DNA from: Actinomycetota bacterium
GTDB lineage: Bacteria > Actinomycetota > Actinomycetes > Actinomycetales > Microbacteriaceae
DNA length: 5,036 nucleotides
Assembly: GCA_009703635.1 (NCBI GenBank)
Contig: WLFS01000044.1
Span: 1-5,036, forward strand
Direction: 5' to 3'
Shown: positions 334-4,841 of the stretch, piece by piece
Position numbering within the stretch: the stretch's first letter is position 1
How the letters are laid out: every line of letters starts with the position of its first letter
The notes under the pieces: model-generated
What the model was told of the DNA's origin: nothing
Database searches by the model: none
What the model saw: only the letters and a program-made list of their open reading frames with translations
Translations under genes and position numbers: made by a program

Positions 334-340
334 CCTTCCT
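334..340 (-). promoter_or_regulatory. Ribosome binding site of qcrA
   Basis: The minus strand reads AGGAAGG here, overlapping the last bases of the qcrC stop region and lying 10 nt before the TTG start of qcrA at 323. An ATG (333-331) directly touches the SD, but its frame closes after six codons, so the SD most likely serves the TTG. The site supports translation of qcrA coupled to the end of qcrC. Confidence 0.6.
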
Positions 341-1127
341 AGTTCGACTTGGCGCCAAGCCATACCGTGATGGCAACAATCAGGCCCAACCCAAAAATCC
401 AAATAAATAATCCTTCGGCAACCGGTCCTAGGCTTCCAAGCTCAAAACCGCCGGCCGATGGATTTTCCTCAAGGTATGCAAGGTAGGTGATTATGTCGTT
501 TTTGTCCTGAGGTGTGATGTTGGCATCGTTGAAAACCGGCATGTTCTGCGGGCCAATCAACATCGCTTCATAAACGTGCTTAGCTTCTACACCTTCAAGA
601 TTAGGAGCGTACTTACCCTCGGTCAAAGCACCTGCGGCACCAACGGCGTTGTGGCACATCGCGCAGTTGATTCTAAATAGCTCTCCACCATGGGTGGCAT
701 CTCCAGTTGCCTCAAGATACTTCTGCTCTGGAATCGCAGGACCAGGAGCCAAGGATGCAATGTAGGCACCCATCAAAGTAATCTGCTCGTCAGTGAACTG
801 AACTTTCTTTTTTGGAAGCTGTGGGCCAGACCCTTGTCCTGGCATACGGCCAGTTCCAACTTGGAAATCAACTGAAGCAGCTCCAACACCGATCAAGCTC
901 GGACCGGCAGCAGAACCTTCGGCATTTAGTCCGTGACAGCTTGCACAGTTAGCAAGGAAAAGTTTTCTACCTTCGGAGATTTGCTCGGCGGTGTACTCAG
1001 TTGCAGCAGTAGTTGCCACAACATTAGTTGCAACTGCGTATCCGCCACCCGAAAACAAAAGTCCAGCGGCAATAACTAGTGTTGCTGCCAGCGGCTTTCT
1101 TCGAGAGCGGTTAAAGCGATTTCCCAT
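339..1127 (-). CDS. qcrC: Dihaem cytochrome c subunit of cytochrome bcc complex (QcrC)
   Basis: This 262-residue protein carries two class I cytochrome c domains in tandem. The haem-binding CxxCH motifs are CASCH at residues 61-65 and CAMCH at 155-159. Likely axial methionines are M95 (GRMPG) and M196 (NMPVF). An N-terminal basic stretch (RSRRK) and hydrophobic segment at about residues 13-32 act as export signal or anchor, and a C-terminal membrane helix lies at about 237-257, so both haem domains face outside the membrane. Length and layout match actinobacterial QcrC, in which a dihaem subunit replaces separate soluble cytochrome c and links complex III directly to the aa3 oxidase. The ATG start lies 9 nt after the ctaE stop; a weak purine-rich SD (AGAAAGAAG) overlaps that stop, which suggests translational coupling. 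qcrA follows after 15 nt. I see no missing ligand or frame damage. Confidence 0.97.
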   Translation of the reverse strand: MGNRFNRSRRKPLAATLVIAAGLLFSGGGYAVATNVVATTAATEYTAEQISEGRKLFLANCASCHGLNAEGSAAGPSLIGVGAASVDFQVGTGRMPGQGSGPQLPKKKVQFTDEQITLMGAYIASLAPGPAIPEQKYLEATGDATHGGELFRINCAMCHNAVGAAGALTEGKYAPNLEGVEAKHVYEAMLIGPQNMPVFNDANITPQDKNDIITYLAYLEENPSAGGFELGSLGPVAEGLFIWIFGLGLIVAITVWLGAKSN

Positions 1128-1136
1128 GACTTCTTT

Positions 1137-1763
1137 CTATTTCAGTACGTAAATGATCAAGAACAGGCCGATCCAAACAACGTCGACGAAGTGCCAGTAG
1201 TAAGAGACAACAATTGCTCCGGTTGCCTCTGCGTGACCAAACTTCTTGGCAGCGTAGCTTCTTCCTATGATGAGCAAGAATGCAATCAATCCGCCGGTCA
1301 CGTGCAAAGCGTGGAAACCGGTGGTGATGTAGAAGGCGCTTCCGTAGGAGTTGCTGCTGATGCTGACACCTTCAGACACCAAGGTGGCGTACTCCAGAAC
1401 CTGACCGGCTACGAAGATTGCTCCAAGTACGTAGCTAATGAAGAACCACTCAACTAGACCCCACTTGGCAGGGGATTTGCCGGTGGCACGTGGCTGCATG
1501 CGCTCAGCGGCGAACACCCCAAACTGCGCCGTGAACGAAGACGCTACCAAGATCAAGGTGTTGATTAGCGCAAATCCGACATCCAGAATCTGAGTATCGT
1601 TGGCCCAAATTTCCGGGGCGTTGGCGCGGAGGCTGAAATACATAGCAAAAAGGCCCGCAAAGAACATAACCTCGCTGGCTAGCCAGACAATCGTTCCCAC
1701 TGAGGTCGCGCTTGGCCTGTTGATTACCACAGAGGTATTTTGGGCCAAGGGAGTTGAGGTCAT
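1137..1763 (-). CDS. ctaE: Cytochrome c oxidase subunit III (CtaE)
   Basis: The 208-residue protein has five predicted membrane helices at about residues 22-44, 63-85, 104-126, 143-168 and 185-206, the short five-helix form of subunit III usual in Actinobacteria. Family signatures are visible: [13 protein letters not shown] with E31 in the first helix, FHALHVTGG with H151 and H154, and [10 protein letters not shown] with H191 near the C-terminus. Subunit III has no metal centre; it stabilises the aa3 oxidase core and is thought to aid proton uptake. It is the first gene of the ctaE-qcrC-qcrA unit, consistent with assembly of a bcc-aa3 supercomplex. The ATG start is supported by a -10 hexamer exactly six bases upstream and by no usable Shine-Dalgarno sequence, so the mRNA is probably leaderless. 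The catalytic oxidase subunits (CtaD, CtaC) are not in the window. Confidence 0.96.
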
Positions 1764-1846: not shown

Positions 1847-2911
1847 ATGAATCCGCAACCAAGCTGGCCGAGCATTTTGGCAAAGCTAATCGCAAAAGCT
1901 GACCTGGAGCGCTCGGAAGCGAGTTGGGCGATGTCGCAAATCATGGCCGGCGATTCAAGTGAAGCGGAAATAGCTGCATTTATGTTGGCACTTCGTTCCA
2001 AAGGCGAAACGGTTTCTGAACTTGCAGGTCTTGTTGATGTCATGCTCAAACAGGCAGTTTTGTTGGACACCGGAAACGATGCGTTGGATATCGTTGGAAC
2101 CGGTGGCGATTTAGTTGGCACCGTAAATGTTTCGAGCATGGCTTCGATCCTTGCTTCCGCCGCAGGTATACCAGTGATGAAGCACGGTTCTCGTTCAGCA
2201 TCGGGAAAGACCGGATCATCGGAAATGCTCGAGGTGTTGGGAATCAAATTAGATCTTTCTCCTCAACGGGTAGCTGAGGTGTTCAAAGAAACCGGAATAA
2301 CGTTCTTTTTCGCTCCGGTGTTCCACCCGGCCATGAGGCATGTAGCTCCAATTCGAAAACAACTCGGGGTTCCAACCACCTTCAACTTTCTGGGACCTTT
2401 GGCAAACCCAGCCCAGCCAATAGCGACCTCACTTGGGGTTGCAAACGCTGATATTGCCCCACTTATGGCCCAAGAATTGGCTGAAAGAGGCCGTTTTGGG
2501 CTGGTTTTCAGAGGAAATGACGGTCTGGACGAGTTAACCACCACCACAACCAGCACACTGTGGTTTGTGAACCCTGAAGGGGTCCAAAAACAGCAATTAG
2601 ACCCAGCAGACTTTGGTATCAAAACCGCCTCCCAGGACTCCCTGATCGGCGGAGACGCCCAACACAATGCCCAGGTGGCAAGAGATCTATTCGCTGGTAA
2701 GACTCAAAACAACCTCGGTGCAGTCCGAGATATCGTCGTTTTGAACGCCGCAGGGGGAGTAGTGGCTTACCGGGCCGCAAAGAACCCCCAGCTATCCGGT
2801 TCCAGCCTCAAGTCTCAATTTGATTCAGCTATAGGTACCGTCACTGAAGCTTTGGACTCAGGCAAAGCCGCCGCAAAAATCGAGCAATGGGTCTCAGCGA
2901 CCCAACAGTAA
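1847..2911 (+). CDS. trpD: Anthranilate phosphoribosyltransferase (TrpD)
   Basis: The cytoplasmic enzyme transfers the phosphoribosyl group of PRPP to anthranilate, the second step from chorismate to tryptophan. At 354 residues it is of normal length. The N-terminal helical domain holds AEIAAFMLALRSKGET (residues about 40-55). The PRPP loop is DIVGTGGD at 81-88, followed by NVSSMAS. The next loop reads KHGSRSASGKTGSSE at 112-126, where most family members have KHGN; here Asn is Ser115. R170 and the FNFLGPLANP block (180-189) contribute to the anthranilate site and dimer core. The metal-binding acidic pair is D228-E229 in DGLDEL, followed by the TTTTTST run I also recall from the mycobacterial enzyme. 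The first ATG is used, with a -10 hexamer seven bases upstream. No other trp gene is present, and the position divergent from ctaE matches the mycobacterial arrangement. All core catalytic motifs except KHGN are intact, so an active enzyme is likely. Confidence 0.95.
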   Translation: MNPQPSWPSILAKLIAKADLERSEASWAMSQIMAGDSSEAEIAAFMLALRSKGETVSELAGLVDVMLKQAVLLDTGNDALDIVGTGGDLVGTVNVSSMASILASAAGIPVMKHGSRSASGKTGSSEMLEVLGIKLDLSPQRVAEVFKETGITFFFAPVFHPAMRHVAPIRKQLGVPTTFNFLGPLANPAQPIATSLGVANADIAPLMAQELAERGRFGLVFRGNDGLDELTTTTTSTLWFVNPEGVQKQQLDPADFGIKTASQDSLIGGDAQHNAQVARDLFAGKTQNNLGAVRDIVVLNAAGGVVAYRAAKNPQLSGSSLKSQFDSAIGTVTEALDSGKAAAKIEQWVSATQQ

Positions 2912-2943
2912 AACTACAAACCTTGCGGGGAGTGACCCCAAGG
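2909..2943 (-). terminator. Possible rho-independent terminator of the yczE-type/Nudix unit
   Basis: A stem pairs CCTT (2921-2924) plus GGGG (2927-2930) with CCCC (2936-2939) plus AAGG (2940-2943), with a 2-base GC bulge and a 5-base loop. On the minus strand the stem is followed by TTTGTAGTTTTA (2920-2909), a broken T tract, so it could end transcription coming from the Nudix gene. On the plus strand only a weak CATTTTC follows, so termination of trpD there is less certain. The T tract overlaps the trpD stop codon. Confidence 0.45.
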
Positions 2944-2957
2944 GCCACATTTTCACT

Positions 2958-2985
2958 ACTTGACATAATGTACATTATCGGCACT
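2958..2985 (-). other. dif: Putative chromosomal dif site (XerC/XerD recombination site)
   Basis: On the minus strand the site reads as an 11-base XerC-type arm AGTGCCGATAA, a 6-base centre TGTACA and an 11-base XerD-type arm TTATGTCAAGT, the exact 11-6-11 layout of dif. Aligned with E. coli dif as I remember it, 22 of 28 bases agree; the ATAA and TTATGT halves flanking the centre are identical. It also agrees, apart from the outermost three bases, with the actinobacterial dif consensus I recall (CCGATAAT, two variable bases, then ACATTATGTCAAGT). The inner 14 bp (2965-2978) are a perfect palindrome. It lies in the intergenic space between convergent trpD and the Nudix gene, a usual place for dif. 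XerC and XerD would act here with FtsK to resolve chromosome dimers. The match is from memory, not from a search. A plain regulator-binding palindrome is the alternative, but the non-palindromic outer arms also match dif. Confidence 0.88.
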
Positions 2986-2995
2986 AGGGACTCAG

Positions 2996-3454
2996 CTAAC
3001 CCAGTTCCACCAGAAGGTCGACAAGCCCTGGCGGCCCCACAGTCTCTCCAGATGCTTTTAGGTCTTTCGGTAGCCACCAGCGCACGTCCAAGATGTCTCG
3101 ATGTTCTTCAGCCGTCCACATCGAACGATTAACCACAAATTCCTCTGAGATTCGAAATTTGAAAAAATGGGCGATTCCAGTTTCGAAGTCGCCAGATTTC
3201 CATGGCTGGTTGAACTCAATTTCCGCCACTTTTGGACCCAACGCATCTGGCGAAACCATCAATCCAGTTTCCTCAAGAAGCTCTCTGCTAGCAGCCTCGG
3301 GAAGGTCCTCAGAGGGCTCAATACCGCCTCCAGGGCTCATCCAGCGCGGTTCTAAGGCACTTTCTGGGCTCCAGAGCGAGTACAGCAGCAAAAACCGCCC
3401 AGAATCGGCTTGTAGCAGGATTCTGGCTGTTTCTCGGTGTCTGATCAGTGCCAA
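2996..3454 (-). CDS. Nudix hydrolase family protein
   Basis: This 152-residue protein is a single Nudix domain. The Nudix box is complete: G43, E49, then R57-E58-L59, E61-E62, G64 and L65, fitting GX5EX7REUXEEXGU; the glutamates of REXXEE bind the catalytic divalent metal. The preceding strand block RILLQADSGRFLLLYSLW (residues 11-28) and WMSPGGG (38-44) are typical of the fold. Family members cleave a nucleoside diphosphate linked to another moiety; the substrate cannot be told from sequence. No signal peptide or membrane helix is seen, so it acts in the cytoplasm. The start is TTG at 3454-3452, the only usable start codon after the in-frame TAA at 3467-3469; an AAGG lies about a dozen bases upstream. 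It starts five bases after the stop of the yczE-type gene, so the two are likely cotranscribed. It converges with trpD across the dif-like site. Confidence 0.9.
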   Translation of the reverse strand: MALIRHRETARILLQADSGRFLLLYSLWSPESALEPRWMSPGGGIEPSEDLPEAASRELLEETGLMVSPDALGPKVAEIEFNQPWKSGDFETGIAHFFKFRISEEFVVNRSMWTAEEHRDILDVRWWLPKDLKASGETVGPPGLVDLLVELG

Positions 3455-3459
3455 AAGCC

Positions 3460-4062
3460 CTAGCCCTTAGGGATTTTGAAGAACTTCATGGATAACTGAA
3501 CTAAATATCCGATACTCAGGGCAAATATCAGGGTTCCTTCCCTAACCTGCCCTCCCATTAGGGCTCCCAGGGTCAAAACTGTGCCTTCGTAGCCTGTTCT
3601 GATCATCCAGAACGGCTTATCCAGAGCGTTAGCTGTCCCCTGCATTAGTCCATCTCTTGGGCCTGATCCGAGGGCTGAGCTGATATACAAACCGGTAGCG
3701 ATAGCGACGATTACGACGCCAGCTAGAAAGATCAGCAGTCTTTGCCAGTAGATCGAAGTGTCAGGAAGAATCAACAGCCAAAAATCGGCAAAAAGCCCGA
3801 TCAATACTGCATTGGCAATAGTTCCAATGCCCGGTTTGACCTTGAGCGGTATCCAAGCCAAAAGCACCAGAGCACTGACAACCACCGTGGAAACACCAAA
3901 ACTTAGCCCAGTTTGTATTGAAATCCCCTGCGCGAATACATCCCAGGGGGCAATTCCAAGGCTGGCATGAACTGTCATTGCGACTCCTAGGCCGTAAACA
4001 AACAATCCGAAGATAAGGATTAGAAGGCGAAAGCTCAGGCTACGGTTGGATTCAGGACGCAC
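3460..4062 (-). CDS. YczE/YyaS/YitT-family integral membrane protein
   Basis: The 200-residue protein is mostly hydrophobic with about five or six membrane segments (roughly residues 12-32, 54-73, 80-99, 108-129, 158-172 and 175-193). Two blocks identify the family: ASLGIAPWDVFAQGIS (33-48) in the first loop and SALGSGPRDGLMQG (129-142), the repeated short G-P-x-D-type loops of COG2364/YczE-like proteins. The molecular role of this family is not firmly established; a transporter-like function is a guess. The GTG start at 4062-4060 is the first codon after an in-frame TAG at 4065-4063, and a TAGTCT -10 hexamer lies exactly six bases upstream, so the mRNA may be leaderless. It is followed after five bases by the Nudix gene and faces away from the phosphodiesterase gene with only 2 bp between start codons. 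Confidence 0.85.
   Translation of the reverse strand: MRPESNRSLSFRLLILIFGLFVYGLGVAMTVHASLGIAPWDVFAQGISIQTGLSFGVSTVVVSALVLLAWIPLKVKPGIGTIANAVLIGLFADFWLLILPDTSIYWQRLLIFLAGVVIVAIATGLYISSALGSGPRDGLMQGTANALDKPFWMIRTGYEGTVLTLGALMGGQVREGTLIFALSIGYLVQLSMKFFKIPKG
4054..4057 (+). promoter_or_regulatory. Ribosome binding site of the glycerophosphodiesterase gene
   Basis: AGGA lies seven bases before the ATG at 4065 and supports that start. It is inside the opening codons of the divergent yczE-type gene, so the mRNA leader must begin within that gene. Confidence 0.5.
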
Positions 4063-4064
4063 CT

Positions 4065-4841
4065 ATGAAGACTACTGGTTATCTAGACACTCACCCTGGC
4101 ACTAGACCGCGTATCTTTGCCCACCGTGGACTGACTTTCCAGAGCGACAAATCGGTAGCTGCTGAGAACACTCTTCAATCCTTCGAGCTTGCCCTTGCGG
4201 CAGGTGCAGATTATCTGGAATCAGATATTCAAGTCACGAAAGATAAAGTTCCCGTTCTGTTTCACGATGGAGACCTAACCAGGCTGGTGGGAAAAAAGAC
4301 AAAGGTTTCAGATCTGAACTTGGCTCAAATCAAGCAAATTAAATTACCTCACTTGGGAAAAATCCCAACTCTTGAACAAGCTTTGATTGCGTTCCCAGAG
4401 GCCAAGTTCAATCTGGATCTAAAAACCCCAGAGGCCGAGACGGTTGGAATTCAAACAATCTTGAAGCTCAAAGCTGAAAATCGCGTTCTGGTCTCAAGCT
4501 TTAGCGAGGCATCAAGAAAACGTGCGCTCGCAATATCCCCTACTCCCCTGGCAACCTCAGCAGGAAGCTCTAAGGTTTTACTCAGCTATCTATTAGCTAG
4601 AGCCGGACTGGAAAAATCTTTAGCCAAACAATTAGTCGGAATTGATGCACTTCAGATACCAATCAGTTTTTTAGCTATCGACTTCACTCACCCCAAGTTC
4701 TTAGAACAGATCTTGCCCTTGGGTGTTGAGGTTCACTATTGGACCATAAACGACCCAAAAACCATGCTGGACCTATTTGCTCTTGGAGCTCATGGCATTG
4801 TCACCGATCGCACCGATCTGGCGGTCAAAACCTTTAGCTGA
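4065..4841 (+). CDS. Glycerophosphodiester phosphodiesterase (GDPD family)
   Basis: The enzyme hydrolyses glycerophosphodiesters from phospholipid turnover to sn-glycerol 3-phosphate and an alcohol. At 258 residues it is a single GDPD TIM-barrel domain without signal peptide, so probably cytoplasmic. Visible active-site features are IFAHRG with H20 and R21, ENT at 34-36, LESDIQVTKD with metal ligands E52 and D54, LFHDGDL with the second catalytic histidine H67, and FNLDLK (115-120) with K120. Late barrel motifs are HYWTIND around W226 and GIVTDRTD at 244-251. In the fifth block many family members have NIEIK; Asp118 replaces the Glu here, a variant I believe is common. ATG at 4065 is the only start before the HRG motif and has AGGA seven bases upstream. 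It diverges from the yczE-type gene with a 2-bp gap; rbpA follows after 102 bp on the same strand. Physiological substrate is not readable from the sequence. Confidence 0.93.
   Translation: MKTTGYLDTHPGTRPRIFAHRGLTFQSDKSVAAENTLQSFELALAAGADYLESDIQVTKDKVPVLFHDGDLTRLVGKKTKVSDLNLAQIKQIKLPHLGKIPTLEQALIAFPEAKFNLDLKTPEAETVGIQTILKLKAENRVLVSSFSEASRKRALAISPTPLATSAGSSKVLLSYLLARAGLEKSLAKQLVGIDALQIPISFLAIDFTHPKFLEQILPLGVEVHYWTINDPKTMLDLFALGAHGIVTDRTDLAVKTFS
4069..4074 (-). promoter_or_regulatory. -10 element of a leaderless promoter for the yczE-type gene
   Basis: The minus strand reads TAGTCT, fitting TANNNT, then six bases, then the GTG start at 4062. This is the same spacing as TAGACT before ctaE. The hexamer lies inside codons 2-4 of the divergent phosphodiesterase gene. 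No Shine-Dalgarno sequence precedes the GTG. No clear -35 is visible. Confidence 0.5.

Follow-up and report, generated by a model that had tools for sequence, protein, structure and literature searches.

The dif site is short and non-coding, and gene callers do not seek it. Two described sites served as references: that of Escherichia coli, whose sequence was taken from a table in PMC2731167, and the predicted site of Frankia alni, as suggested by Kono et al. 2011 (PMC3025954). On the E. coli model, an odd number of crossovers between sister chromosomes would produce a dimer, and FtsK, located at the division septum, would pump DNA until both dif copies meet. FtsK-gamma would then activate XerD. 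With XerD and XerC each occupying one 11-bp arm, the strands would be exchanged twice in succession within the 6-bp centre, and the dimer would thereby be resolved into two monomers. Xer binding and the recombination reaction at the site described here are presumed by analogy with E. coli. In the open-licence literature we found no paper on dif in Rhodoluna, in Microbacteriaceae, or in Actinobacteria in connection with trpD, which does not prove that none is in print.

The site lies in a 5,036-nucleotide stretch of DNA (the whole of which is referred to as the window). An exact sequence search of the window placed the 28-mer ACTTGACATAATGTACATTATCGGCACT at positions 2958-2985 of the plus strand. 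Read on the minus strand, it consists of AGTGCCGATAA/TGTACA/TTATGTCAAGT, i.e. it has the 28-bp format of dif, with 11-bp arms on either side of a 6-bp centre, and it contains a perfect 14-bp palindrome, ATAATGTACATTAT, at 2965-2978. The 11-6-11 arrangement with a TGTACA centre on the minus strand, reported in a preliminary description of this DNA, is therefore exact. The same applies to the convergent intergenic gap named there: the 28-mer is located in an 84-bp space between the stop codon of trpD, which ends at 2911, and that of a Nudix gene, at 2996, both of which face it. The features of the window are as follows.

2958..2985, minus strand: dif core, 28 bp (XerC arm of 11, centre of 6 and XerD arm of 11 bases on the minus strand), from sequence match and conservation
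2975..2985, minus strand: XerC-side arm AGTGCCGATAA, named after the equivalent arm in E. coli
2969..2974, minus strand: central region TGTACA, with a putative role in strand exchange based on E. coli XerCD/dif
2958..2968, minus strand: XerD-side arm TTATGTCAAGT, which faces trpD, the arm being named by analogy
1847..2911, plus strand: trpD, anthranilate phosphoribosyltransferase (TIGR01245, 338.9 bits; cut-off 199.05)
2996..3454, minus strand: Nudix hydrolase gene, the convergent neighbour of dif
1137..1763, minus strand: ctaE, aa3 cytochrome oxidase subunit III (NF050119, 304.1 bits)
339..1127, minus strand: qcrC, bc1 complex diheme cytochrome c (NF050122, 367.5 bits)
3460..4062, minus strand: YczE-family membrane protein (NF052291, 218.5 bits)
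4065..4841, plus strand: glycerophosphodiester phosphodiesterase family protein (PF03009, 116.8 bits)

The window resembles Rhodoluna limnophila: its TrpD protein shares 97% identity with the one encoded in a metagenome-assembled genome of that label (L001). An ORF of 81 aa that spans dif (2887-3132) lacked a Pfam match and was taken as a chance reading frame.

Comparison with the F. alni sequence given in PMC3025954 revealed that the window site shares 24 of 28 bases as well as the 11-6-11 layout with this predicted dif. The four differences comprise the three bases at the outer end of the XerC-side arm and one base of the centre. The earlier statement that the site agrees with the actinobacterial consensus at all but the three outermost bases is thus nearly right when F. 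alni dif, the only reference used, is taken as the measure. With E. coli dif, as listed in the table of PMC2731167, the site has 22 of 28 bases and the layout in common (six bases differ), which is the same count as had been claimed.

Conservation of the site was analyzed in orthologous trpD loci, the best 80 of 161 of which were compared. Fifty-nine of these, with trpD identity of at least 57% and titles naming Rhodoluna, Aquiluna, Microbacteriaceae, Micrococcales or unspecified Actinomycetota/Actinomycetales, were grouped with the window; the remaining 21 belong to other actinobacteria (trpD identity 46–50%). Among these best 80 loci, 55 of the 59 members of the window group have dif behind trpD, and in each of the four others (L005, L027, L035, L064) the contig stops at or inside trpD. 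In the 21 loci of other actinobacteria the best match of any stretch to the 28-mer did not exceed 17/28, and dif is therefore not near trpD there.

An alignment of 56 sites (including that of the window) gave a mean information of 1.68 bits over the 28 columns versus 0.50 and 0.25 bits in the 30-column flanks. Constraint is restricted to the 28 bp, and the arms are kept in the orthologous trpD gap of relatives while the flanks drift. In these 56 sites, eight columns of the XerD-side arm (3, 4 and 6–11) and the inner seven columns of the XerC-side arm (18–24, 2.00 bits) are invariant, and the most variable columns are the outermost three on the XerC side (26–28, 0.31–0.79 bits) together with the central columns 15 and 16.

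The nine columns adjacent to the XerD-side arm (2949-2957 in the window) are A/T-rich and partly conserved in the same 56 sites (0.46–1.46 bits). No common A/T-rich stretch was visible by eye beside this arm in 20 sites of wider relatives.

Neighbouring genes were counted in 55 site-bearing loci (L064 not included). All 55 loci contain ctaE, 47 contain yczE and 41 the Nudix gene. Thirteen of the 14 loci without the Nudix gene have yczE nearest to dif among the genes sought, and in the other one (L016) the contig ends 135 bp past dif. The placement of dif between trpD and a Nudix gene is thus correct in relatives as regards trpD, which is the constant neighbour, but its other half applies to 41 of 55 loci only.

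The copy number of the site was determined in a near set of 71 genomes (G001–G071), composed of the 12 genomes of the trpD loci and the next 59 listed relatives, up to a jump in genome size. These genomes have 0.8–1.6 Mb and a TrpD identity of 52–97% where the match is near full length, and they appear to form a single group. A search allowing up to three mismatches to a 23-base core detected dif in 64 of the 71 genomes, 63 of which carry one copy and not several equal ones. In the remaining genome, G030, dif occurs twice, at identical coordinates on two contigs, which probably reflects a duplicated contig. As for the near genomes without dif, (i) G034 and G065 have no TrpD match, (ii) the TrpD match of G010, G011, G012 and G042 runs into a contig end, and (iii) that of G068 is partial. 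When the search was extended to the 298 listed relatives of G001, 226 had a match, of which, by eye, 216 were single and 10 had two or three; the other 72 may be drafts or carry more divergent sites.

A mere chance resemblance to dif is practically out of the question. In the window, the 28-mer at 2958-2985 is the sole match at three or fewer mismatches, none of 200 shuffled windows contained a match to it, and a reversed control pattern found no match in the 71 near genomes or in the 298 listed relatives. The strong conservation of the site, set against its drifting flanks, argues in the same direction.

In the near genomes, all 65 dif places are downstream of trpD and on the same strand, at a distance of 14–120 bp in 63 cases and of 1114 and 1143 bp in the other two. 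This constancy of locus and polarity, together with the single copy, bears on another origin of the site, namely that it was left by a plasmid or phage integrated via XerCD and is not the chromosome's own dif. Such an origin would be in line with the dif-like sites present in five viral contigs and with a 40-base stretch on one Clavibacter plasmid, which covers the site and is 87.5% alike. Since the locus, polarity and copy number speak against it, and none of the six called genes of the window matches a mobile-element family, we regard it as very improbable.

The wider sample comprised 80 further genomes among the relatives listed, 70 from G072–G183 and 10 more distant ones, chosen mainly for their long contigs; 78 of the 80 had a TrpD match. 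The genomes G072–G183 seem to be mainly Microbacteriaceae, judging from the order of relatives. Here, dif and trpD were located on one contig at 57 places, at 52 of which they are on the same strand. At 44 of the 57 places dif shares the strand of trpD and follows it within 30 kb on the downstream side, at 12 it is 32–320 kb from trpD, and at one (G169) it is on the other side. Two genomes of this range, G083 and G164, have trpD-dif gaps of 53 and 48 bp and a TrpD identity of 68 and 65%, respectively; they may belong to the near set, and the count without both is 42 of 55. In the distant genomes dif was near trpD in none of eight cases and on the same strand in none of eight, the TrpD matches of G185 and G233 being partial and weak. 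A further 18 dif places could not be positioned relative to trpD, as this gene either lay on a different contig or was missing from the matches; they include the second sites of three genomes (G096, G115 and G178). The dif of the window is an ordinary element of a known kind, and its position directly behind trpD, unusually stable in dozens of related genomes, is mildly new.

The perfect palindrome and the invariable position downstream of trpD in the near genomes would also suit a site that ends trpD transcription or binds a regulator of this gene. The readings as terminator, promoter or RNA hairpin were rejected after a scan of 2800-3100, which contains no terminator-like or promoter-like site, and after folding of the gap RNA, which folds no better than shuffled sequences (z −0.67), the palindrome forming no hairpin of its own in the predicted structure. 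Moreover, the same site is found kilobases away from trpD elsewhere and resembles the dif of other phyla. A role in trpD expression is accordingly most unlikely.

Machinery of the XerC/XerD/FtsK type, as in the E. coli system, was identified in the relatives of the window. FtsK with the gamma domain scored over the cut-off in all 12 related genomes analyzed. The XerD model was over its cut-off in 10 of 12. The exceptions are the drafts G001 and G002, which are the closest relatives: G001 has one strong Xer gene, XerC-like, and G002 a fragment at a contig start. All 12 genomes carry an XerC-like gene, with 275–332 bits for the XerC model versus 251–296 bits for the XerD model; the XerC cut-off of 335 was passed by none of them and by 2 of 14 control genomes. 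The expected pair of recombinase genes is thus present in the relatives, but XerD remains below the cut-off in G001 and G002, and the second gene is XerC-like by score. Eight of ten fetched Xer loci were inspected, and each ORF, picked by this same pattern, contained an HxLRH box and a later tyrosine; the box with the first catalytic arginine, sought with a narrow pattern, was matched in two of the eight proteins.

The copy number, locus, arms, Xer genes and FtsK-gamma domain found in the relatives support the proposal that this is the dif site for chromosome dimer resolution. We estimate the probability that positions 2958-2985 are the chromosomal dif site at about 0.97.

The position of the site on the chromosome was examined in three relatives with a contig as long as the rounded genome size, and in one more distant genome. 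Compared with E. coli dif, the sites of three related chromosomes are distinguished by lying 38–41% of the circle from dnaA: (i) in G055, dif is at 554,140 of 1,398,704 and dnaA at 164 (39.6% of the circle apart), (ii) in G016, at 846,496 of 1,430,433 and 94 (40.8%, the shorter way), and (iii) in G083, at 549,060 of 1,459,348 and 164 (37.6%). In the more distant G233 the separation is 46.5% of a contig of 3,051,613 bases. This distance of dif from the antipode is mildly unusual.

Gene strand was analyzed in a 400-kb tile of G055 that surrounds dif. To the left of the site 142 of 171 ORFs are on the plus strand, compared with 50 of 167 to the right, and the best single change point, at 548,783, is 5 kb from dif. 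This point had a log-likelihood of −174.9, versus −179.8 for a change placed at dif, −230.1 for one at the antipode and −231.1 without any change. Coarse 10-kb stretches of G055 have a plus-strand share above half in 10/10 cases on the left and below half in 10/10 on the right. The corresponding values for 20-kb stretches are 8/11 and 8/9 in G016, and 7/8 and 7/12 in G083, where the bias is weak on the right.

The sign of GC skew also flips around dif, with exceptions. It was positive to the left and negative to the right in 8/8 and 10/12 of the 20-kb stretches of G083, 9/11 and 6/9 of those of G016, and 9/10 and 8/10 of those of the G055 tile, as well as in 7/10 and 8/10 of the coarse 10-kb stretches of G055. 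In these relatives the site thus lies in the terminus, where strand bias or skew switches, but the switch of GC skew is noisier than that of gene strand, and in the G055 tile cumulative skew peaks at 631,936, i.e. 78 kb away. When third-codon-position GC skew was calculated separately for the genes of each strand, its sign was mostly the same on both sides of dif, which indicates that gene direction accounts for much of the switch in overall skew. Both the offset of the cumulative maximum and the third-position skew speak against a sharp switch of replication skew at the site. The claim that the window marks the replication terminus is borne out in the relatives insofar as dif is far from dnaA and within about 5 kb of the G055 strand switch, but some 40% of the circle separates it from dnaA, so that it is not at the antipode.

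It is conceivable, though we would put it forward only tentatively, that selection keeps dif directly behind trpD in the near genomes and more loosely (within about 30 kb, with the same polarity) in many further relatives, and that this fixed off-antipode locus, not the midpoint of the forks, sets the ends of the replication arms. Because the gene-strand switch agrees with the off-antipode position of dif, the factor that determines the terminus can be tested in a simple way. In practical terms, the 28-mer allows the terminus and both replication arms to be located in these small freshwater bacteria, draft genomes included, and the stable trpD-dif link can serve as a marker for contig ordering.

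Polar motifs were sought in sampled stretches of three chromosomes, about 1.2 Mb in total. The sequence GGGNAGGG, the KOPS motif of E. coli, pointed toward dif 37 times and away from it 13 times (one-sided binomial 0.0005), this being one of five named motifs and gene direction being a confounding factor; to the right of dif in G083 the numbers were 7 toward versus 6 away. Another of the five, GAGAAGGG, had no orientation bias (14 versus 12). Octamers polar toward dif showed modest excesses, the best being 80 versus 27 among 5651 tested, and are likewise confounded by gene direction.

Near-perfect actinobacterial dif-like sites were also observed in viral contigs (L205:2324-2346, L212:10596-10618, L220:4706-4728, L234:11744-11766 and L316:106-128), those of L220 and L316 having shared flanks. 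These five contigs may represent phages that integrate at dif via the host XerCD. Second, slightly different dif-like sites were present on other contigs of G096 (C4:51895-51917) and G178 (C2:38787-38809), and a stretch similar to dif on a Clavibacter plasmid (NZ_CP040793.1:38785-38824), which points to plasmid-borne Xer sites.

Finally, in eight drafts (G005, G006, G007, G009, G017, G018, G019 and G057) dif is located 70–79 kb from a contig start, and in the four of them that were looked at (G005, G007, G009 and G057) xerD lies 8–12 kb from that same start. The constant distance between dif and the contig start suggests that a repeat breaks the assemblies there.
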